A DNA stretch of 32,324 bases from contig CANDVA010000027.1 of the NCBI GenBank assembly GCA_947389015.1, positions 1 through 32,324 of the forward strand, read 5' to 3'. Both the position numbers and the translations under genes were made by a program. Shown here in pieces: positions 9,545-24,223 of this stretch. The notes beneath the pieces were generated by a model. The model was given only the letters and a program-made list of their open reading frames with translations. It did no database searches and was not told the DNA's origin. Every line of letters starts with the position of its first letter. Position 1 is the stretch's first letter. Origin of the DNA: an uncultured Clostridia bacterium. GTDB taxonomy: Bacteria > Bacillota > Clostridia > Oscillospirales > Ruminococcaceae.

Positions 9545-9663
9545 ATTGCCCGCGTGAGTTTATATTATGTGTTTATTATAGCATAGTTTAAGATTTTTTG
9601 CAAACATTGTGTAAGTTAAATCGGAATATAGCGCAGTAACACTATGACCCCAAAATCGGGATT

Positions 9664-9866
9664 CCAAAGGGACTGGTCCCTTTGGCGGGATGCAAGGGCA
9701 GAGCCCTTGCCGGGTTCGGGCAGAGCCCGAAACGCCGCAAAGCGGCAAAAAAAAGCGCTAAAAGGGCTTGGGGAAAAACTCTTGTTTTTCCCCAAATCAA
9801 GGATTTTGCCAACAGGCAAAATCCTTGATCAATTACCTTTTTCTGCCAGTGACAGAAAAAGGTAAT
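9664..9866. repeat. Array of seven consecutive hairpins (intergenic palindromic element)
   Basis: Seven abutting inverted repeats, each with different sequence: 9664-9685 (10 bp stem, loop 2), 9692-9710 (8, loop 3), 9715-9731 (7, loop 3), 9734-9746 (5, loop 3), 9768-9795 (12, loop 4), 9797-9828 (14, loop 4) and 9832-9866 (14, loop 7). A poly-A tract (9747-9754) separates the GC-rich first four from the longer last three. Short frames across it are low-complexity artefacts. It resembles palindrome-rich intergenic elements I associate with Ruminococcaceae genomes. Mobility or RNA function is not shown by the sequence. Confidence 0.75.
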
Positions 9867-9971
9867 CCGCGCTCCGAGCAACACCTTACTGGTATAAATC
9901 CTGATTTGCTTTAAAGCCTTTTCGTAATATTGCCCAAAAAACAAACAAAAAAATTGTACAAAACTCCGCCC

Positions 9972-24012: not shown

Positions 24013-24073
24013 TGTCTGTATTTCCTTTCATAATTTGTGTTTCCGTGAAGGCACAGCCGTTCTGCAAAAAAGT

Positions 24074-24194
24074 CAGCCGCCGCAGGCTGCCCTGTGTTGA
24101 ACGACGTTTCGGCGTTCAATCGGGGCAACTGCGCAAACGTTGCGTTTGCGCGCTGCCTTACGCAGTGCAGAAGCTCAGTTTTATGCAGCTCTGC
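24074..24194. repeat. Hairpin-rich rpsO-pnp spacer
   Basis: Consecutive inverted repeats: cagcc/ggctg (24074-24089), ttgaacg/cgttcaa (24097-24119), gcgcaaacg/cgtttgcgc with a 3-base loop (24131-24151), and gcag-a-agct/agct-ctgc (24167-24194). In other bacteria this spacer carries the RNase III-processed leader through which PNPase controls its own mRNA. A similar role here is inferred. Confidence 0.55.
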
Positions 24195-24223
24195 GCCCTC
24201 TTTTTCCGCCGCGAAATAAAGTG

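Follow-up and report, generated by a model that had tools for sequence, protein, structure and literature searches.

What is a run of perfect hairpins, each unlike the others, doing in the genome of an uncultured Clostridia bacterium of the Ruminococcaceae? The window, by which we mean the whole stretch of 32,324 nucleotides that was analysed, carries seven such hairpins within positions 9,664–9,866, as an earlier note had observed and as we confirmed on the sequence. Hairpin 1 (9,664–9,685) has a 10-bp stem and a 2-nt TG loop, while hairpins 2 (9,692–9,710) and 3 (9,715–9,731) have stems of 8 and 7 bp, each closed by a 3-nt AGA loop. Hairpin 4 (9,734–9,746), with a 5-bp stem and an AAA loop, was identified by reading the sequence and appears in both folds. 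Hairpins 5 (9,768–9,795) and 6 (9,796–9,829) have stems of 12 and 15 bp with TCTT and AACA loops, respectively, and hairpin 7 (9,832–9,866) combines a perfect 14-bp stem with a 7-nt loop; it has one C-A mismatch further in, and its outer bases covary between copies. The shortest stem is therefore 5 bp, as first described, but the longest is 15 bp rather than 14; likewise, the hairpins are closely spaced but not strictly abutting, with gaps of 6, 4, 2, 21, 0, and 2 nt. Two of them have the 11-mer GGGCAGAGCCC in common. A CRISPR array was rejected, since there are no shared direct repeats with unique spacers, and the array holds only two-copy repeats of 8–12 nt, in line with the initial view that it is neither a CRISPR array nor a tandem repeat.

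The element extends beyond this run. The whole unit, unstranded like its hairpins, spans 292 bp from site to site (9,617–9,908), and its ends are inverted copies of one 14-bp site, TAAATCAGAATTTA...TAAATTCTGATTTA. The left site, TAAATCGGAATATA (9,617–9,630, minus strand), and the right site, TAAATCCTGATTTG (9,895–9,908, plus strand), each differ from the family site by 2 mismatches. Four bases inside the left site lies the inner arm AGTAA (9,635–9,639, plus strand), and four bases inside the right site its counterpart TTACT (9,886–9,890, minus strand). Matches to the 14-bp site at up to 3 mismatches in the window (4, versus 3.8 in shuffles) are at about shuffle level, so that the sites are identified by their pairing and by other copies rather than from the window alone. 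The unit sits between two divergent reading frames, the right one encoding a GH94 protein, and the region 9,600–9,960 folds strongly on both the plus strand (−141.6 kcal/mol, z −8.5) and the minus strand (−152.5 kcal/mol, z −9.3); none of 100 shuffles matches this on either strand. The rpsO-pnp spacer, proposed as another hairpin-rich region, is moderately structured (z −3.1 for 24,060–24,210) and has no match to the 14-bp site.

The window's own genome (G000), queried with positions 9,640–9,880, has about 30 distinct places that match; the remainder of the 60 matches are reverse-strand matches of the palindromes. The site TAAATTCTGATTTA occurs there 66 times at up to one mismatch, compared to once in the reversed control. 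Complete units, defined as paired sites with up to three mismatches tolerated in the partner, number 22 and measure 291–399 bp; many further units are broken by contig ends. Nineteen of the 22 are hairpin arrays, two have a different non-coding interior, and one (G000:C7:85577-85937) encloses a 92-aa ORF and thus represents a site-bounded gene unit in this genome. The second non-coding type (G000:C16:8100-8467 and C28:25423-25790) has the same sites around an unrelated interior, with ends that are alike over ~25 bp, and contigs C6, C37, and C38 terminate in pieces of it. An AGTAA-like inner arm recurs in other hairpin copies, similar though without identity. The dinucleotide TA is found at 33 of the 44 unit ends, with no longer target repeat in view. 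According to a simple ORF script, the neighbouring frames are divergent for 7 units, tandem for 11, and convergent for 3, and the remaining unit is at a contig end; the intergenic position of the units arises partly by construction, because the script dropped frames overlapping a unit by >100 nt. A stop codon is overlapped or lies within 5 nt in 7 of the 22 units.

These many copies, with inverted terminal sites, unrelated flanks, and absence from one orthologous locus, support the earlier suggestion of a palindromic mobile element. The absence concerns the C8 locus, where both flanks are present without the unit in G014, G047, G054, and G011 (four of 10 genomes searched); in these relatives the junction is too diverged to read a target duplication or a clean empty site. 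No empty site was apparent at the locus of the window unit, with none in G042 or G014 and with differing left flanks. In G020 (L098/L192, G020:C20) it holds a 45-bp mini-unit consisting of a site, 17 bp, and a worn site, with no hairpins; this lies upstream of the orthologous GH94 gene, ~15 bp off in position, with a different left neighbour. The window copy itself, with sites worn by two mismatches each, may be inert.

The same sites bracket single genes in relatives. Among 43 genomes of the genus, including the window's own, the exact site is present in 22 and a wider form, TAAATYCYGATTTA, in 30. Selecting for one exact site and an ORF covering more than 60% of the unit, we found 38 gene units. 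The start codon lies 10–20 nt past the first site in 26 of them, while in 17 the stop codon is the TAA contained in the second site. By eye, the upstream flank often shows a TTGACA/TATAAT-like promoter followed by TTACTAAGA, and the downstream flank often shows TGCGAGTAACCGAATA and a terminator-looking inverted repeat; other flank types also occur. The AGTAA-like arm lies inside the hairpin units and outside the gene in gene units. A Pfam scan of 35 of the 38 unit ORFs and the window's GH94 frame (L130, L186:4796, and L188 were dropped) assigned cargo families that include six GNAT acetyltransferases and two each of nitroreductases, glyoxalase-like proteins, and isochorismatases, the last being a single unit present in two genomes; a cupin, a methyltransferase, and a protein with a metallo-beta-lactamase fold also occur.

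A search with the 5′ motif alone led to 33 named loci from Ruminococcus, Oscillospiraceae, and Clostridia MAGs and from two R. flavefaciens records; they partly overlap the G genomes (L207 = G014, L221 = G022, L228 = G013) and are thus not fully independent, and one of the two motif matches in L217 was used. An ORF of at least 60 aa begins within 100 nt in 24 loci, and in 23 of these 24 a second site (up to 3 mismatches) lies at the stop codon; in a control window placed further along, this holds for 1 of 24. This test covered sense ORFs, and antisense frames were inspected afterwards for eight loci. The single exception, L224, appears non-coding. The other nine loci comprise hairpin arrays in L218, L237, L236, and L229 (the last without a visible promoter), a reversed gene in L228, a near-empty unit in L215, an antisense frame in L213, and two that are cut short (L212 and L230).

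Several comparisons indicate that the units move. An isochorismatase unit, sites included, is identical at 542 of 543 bp between G022 and G013, and its 300-bp flanks show no match on either side; over another 4-kb locus, the identity between these genomes is 84.0%. Furthermore, of 17 pairs alike in their upstream flanks, 16 contain dissimilar units, although the pairs are not independent. Four relatives (L103/L117, L102, L107, and L186) have similar upstream flanks around different contents, namely a nitroreductase, a GNAT protein, a glyoxalase-like protein, and a 125-aa protein of unassigned family; a gene that follows is one that we take to resemble ttcA.

Hairpin arrays occupy the same slot as the genes. 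In L218 and L237, both from genome G336, promoter-like sequence precedes an array that has both sites. G336 contains five full-length array copies, the query and four at 94–98% identity, which end at the sites; L342 and L339 lie behind promoter-like sequence and TTACTAAGA, that is, in the gene slot, while L336–L338 lie outside it, with similar 5′ flanks in L337 and L338. Another genus of the family has arrays as well: those in L314 and L315 come after the first site, and those in L346 and L347 have a recognisable site at either end. Arrays in L236, L229, L314, L315, and L344–L347 were judged by eye; for L218 and L237, the folding energy per base, taken without shuffles, was considered in addition. 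The platform motif, at one mismatch, is present in 5 of 295 genomes drawn evenly from the order, and all 5 are among the family's 26. It has no match at this threshold in the window's own genome, and the window unit sits outside any promoter platform. With a 32-base near-palindrome as the query for empty platforms and up to 2 mismatches tolerated, 6 places came up in 5 genomes; the contents of three are a gene unit in G022, a gene unit in G014, and a hairpin unit at G000:C23. Four viral-contig scans returned 0, 8, 0, and 0 stretches.

In genome G042, most of the 60 matches fall on the hairpin part, and the site core (within one mismatch) is found at 4 of 36 flanks in 20 stretches, where 0.4 would be expected. 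Hairpins and sites can thus part, as this genome is rich in hairpins yet mostly without sites. Several of its arrays (L280–L299) have CGCAGCTAAAAAACGGGATT-like ends, some head to head and mostly without the 14-bp site. We regard the G042 arrays as an older or differently moved branch.

Based on the copies, the site-to-site boundaries, the unrelated flanks, the interspecies gene unit with the same sites, and the arrays in the same slot, we consider it probable that the window array forms the non-coding interior of a MITE-like mobile cassette, moved in trans by a putative enzyme that also moves genes. Such an enzyme would recognise TAAATNNNNATTTA, probably together with the AGTAA/TTACT-like arm four bases away, and would move whatever lies between two sites, mostly a single promoter-driven gene in relatives and elsewhere a hairpin array. 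In the window's own genome, hairpin units would have multiplied in the manner of MITEs. One enzyme, presumably a site-specific recombinase, would act on both kinds of unit, and folding as single-stranded DNA might, speculatively, aid recognition. Several observations sit uneasily with this reading: the AGTAA-like arm is placed differently in hairpin units and gene units, sites are mostly missing from hairpin-rich G042, the platform motif has no match in the window's own genome at one mismatch, the covariation counts given below are mixed, and the scans described below turned up no enzyme, target duplication, or clean empty junction. Our verdict is that, in its way of working, the window unit resembles the passenger in a gene-cassette system.

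One close comparison for such a system is the integron. Like integron cassettes, the units are promoterless single genes close to sites and behind promoter-like sequence; they carry GNAT, isochorismatase, nitroreductase, and glyoxalase-like cargo, and some members are gene-less. The relatives' gene units form a platform of exchangeable single genes behind promoters, the latter recognised by eye. They differ in that two short inverted sites (TAAATNNNNATTTA) take the place of one attC and that there is mostly one gene per place, with several places per genome. attC sites have RYYYAAC/GTTRRRY ends. Moreover, an integron integrase above the cut-off is found in 0 of the 43 genus genomes, and membership in the integrons was not supported. 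Matches below the cut-off are uninformative because they occur in all 43 genomes as well as in 14 of 14 control genomes, and ten loci around some of the best weak matches (L195–L204) contain no site within 2 mismatches. More tentatively, and with somewhat less than an even chance of being right, we propose a Ruminococcaceae gene-cassette system distinct from integrons, in which a recombinase would exchange single genes and arrays at the palindromic site TTACT-N4-TAAAT-N4-ATTTA-N4-AGTAA behind dispersed promoters, and the arrays would be selfish gene-less cassettes.

Among the alternatives, the one that best withstands the data is an ordinary MITE, that is, the remnant of a DDE insertion sequence with a TA target and inverted repeats of ~14–25 bp; the gene units would then be mobile insertion cassettes (MICs) of the same transposase. 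MICs harbour a passenger gene but lack a transposase. The hairpin units resemble both classes: they are short, non-autonomous, bounded by inverted terminal repeats, and present in many copies below about 600 bp that lack a transposase. The TA at most unit ends and the likeness of the ends despite unrelated interiors also speak for this explanation, and much of the data would follow from an inverted-repeat transposase that works on these ends. Against it stand the common upstream flanks of different units in the 16 of 17 non-independent pairs; promoter-like flanks shared by different units, and an interior of unlike perfect hairpins, set these elements apart from MITEs and MICs. A search for the source enzyme covered 111 ORFs near sites (123 were picked, and the 12 largest, all >600 aa, were left out), and neither a recombinase nor a transposase is among the 25 Pfam families listed of 179, so that a recombinase may lie among the rest; no autonomous copy came up in the sequences examined, and a target duplication was not found either, the C8 junction being diverged. 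Mobile insertion cassettes have been described in the literature (PMC5444012, PMC6542083). We consider the MITE explanation unlikely, although it deserves more weight than the ones below.

Compared to the mobile-cassette reading, it is improbable that the array is a selected structured RNA or transcriptional element (a terminator, insulator, or processing site) whose copies are retained for function. One argument in its favour is the conservation of pairing. Three hairpins make up a right half that the copies have in common, and the left half comes in two versions; as these versions align poorly, covariation was scored on the right half only (alignment A1). Across 19 copies, standard pairs fill 99.6% of the 816 pair cells, compared to 95.5% in shuffles, and sliding the pairing partners lowers this value to at most 57%. 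Doubly changed cells number 46, versus 19.0 (sd 3.7) in shuffles, with 0 of 500 shuffles reaching 46. Two further counts do not exceed shuffles: 6 pairs with double changes (equalled by 54 of 500) and 11 further pair types (equalled by 500 of 500). The covariation, with mixed counts among related copies, thus favours selection on pairing without proving it. The position of the array directly behind promoter-like sequence in L218 and L339 also agrees with an RNA role. On the other hand, the array has no Rfam match (the Rfam matches in the window are six tRNAs), a simple scan shows no terminator-like site inside it, and just 3 of the 22 copies lie between convergent frames compared to 7 between divergent ones. 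The two strands fold alike, loops flip, and four relatives lack the C8 copy. With regard to the structured-RNA option raised in the earlier note, template switching at the DNA level also explains the covariation.

Template switching is suggested by how the stems vary. Stem changes fall in blocks, such as ATCAAGG/CCTTGAT versus ATCGGCG/CGCCGAT, and loops occur in both orientations: among the 19 copies, the loop of hairpin 5 reads AAGA in 17 and its reverse complement TCTT, as in the window, in 2, while that of hairpin 6 reads AACA in 16, AATA in 1, and the reverse complement TGTT in 2. Footprints of template switching include multiple compensated changes and loop inversion, according to a published account (PMC8794818). 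The hairpin units share these compensated blocks and inverted loops with the template-switch mutations at quasipalindromes considered there, with the difference that the process was proposed there for RNA genes (PMC8794818), whereas here it would act on a repeated non-coding unit. Short template switches during replication would use one stem arm as the template for the other, at times inverting the loop. From the block-wise compensated changes and inverted loops, we infer that template switching is the likeliest cause of the perfect stems. Recent copying and strong selection on pairing were the two causes offered initially; this third one, which agrees with the inverted loops, had been omitted.

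Finally, REPIN/BIME-like palindromes mobilised by a RAYT (Y1 transposase) are a very improbable source: the units are likewise high-copy palindrome mosaics and Y1_Tnp matches are present in G000, but one of these is frame-broken and two are partial, none of five relatives with hairpin matches (G042, G014, G020, G012, and G001, with few in G020) has a RAYT, and the unit ends are inverted 14-bp sites unlike those of REPINs. With no intact RAYT in the six genomes tested, this candidate was rejected.

Across the titles and abstracts retrieved from the open-licence literature, with subscription papers and preprints outside this scope, nothing describes these sites or arrays, and the end sites shared by the arrays and the moved genes hint at an undescribed gene-shuffling system. 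The stems offer a natural case of perfect-hairpin upkeep, in which copies are numerous, compensated changes come in blocks, and loops are flipped, and the unit that is identical at 542 of 543 bp in two species provides a direct handle for testing the cassette system. If the mobile-cassette reading is true, hairpin arrays would mark where a gene-placing system has acted, and Ruminococcaceae would place single genes behind promoters in their own way, in a genus without an integron integrase above the cut-off.
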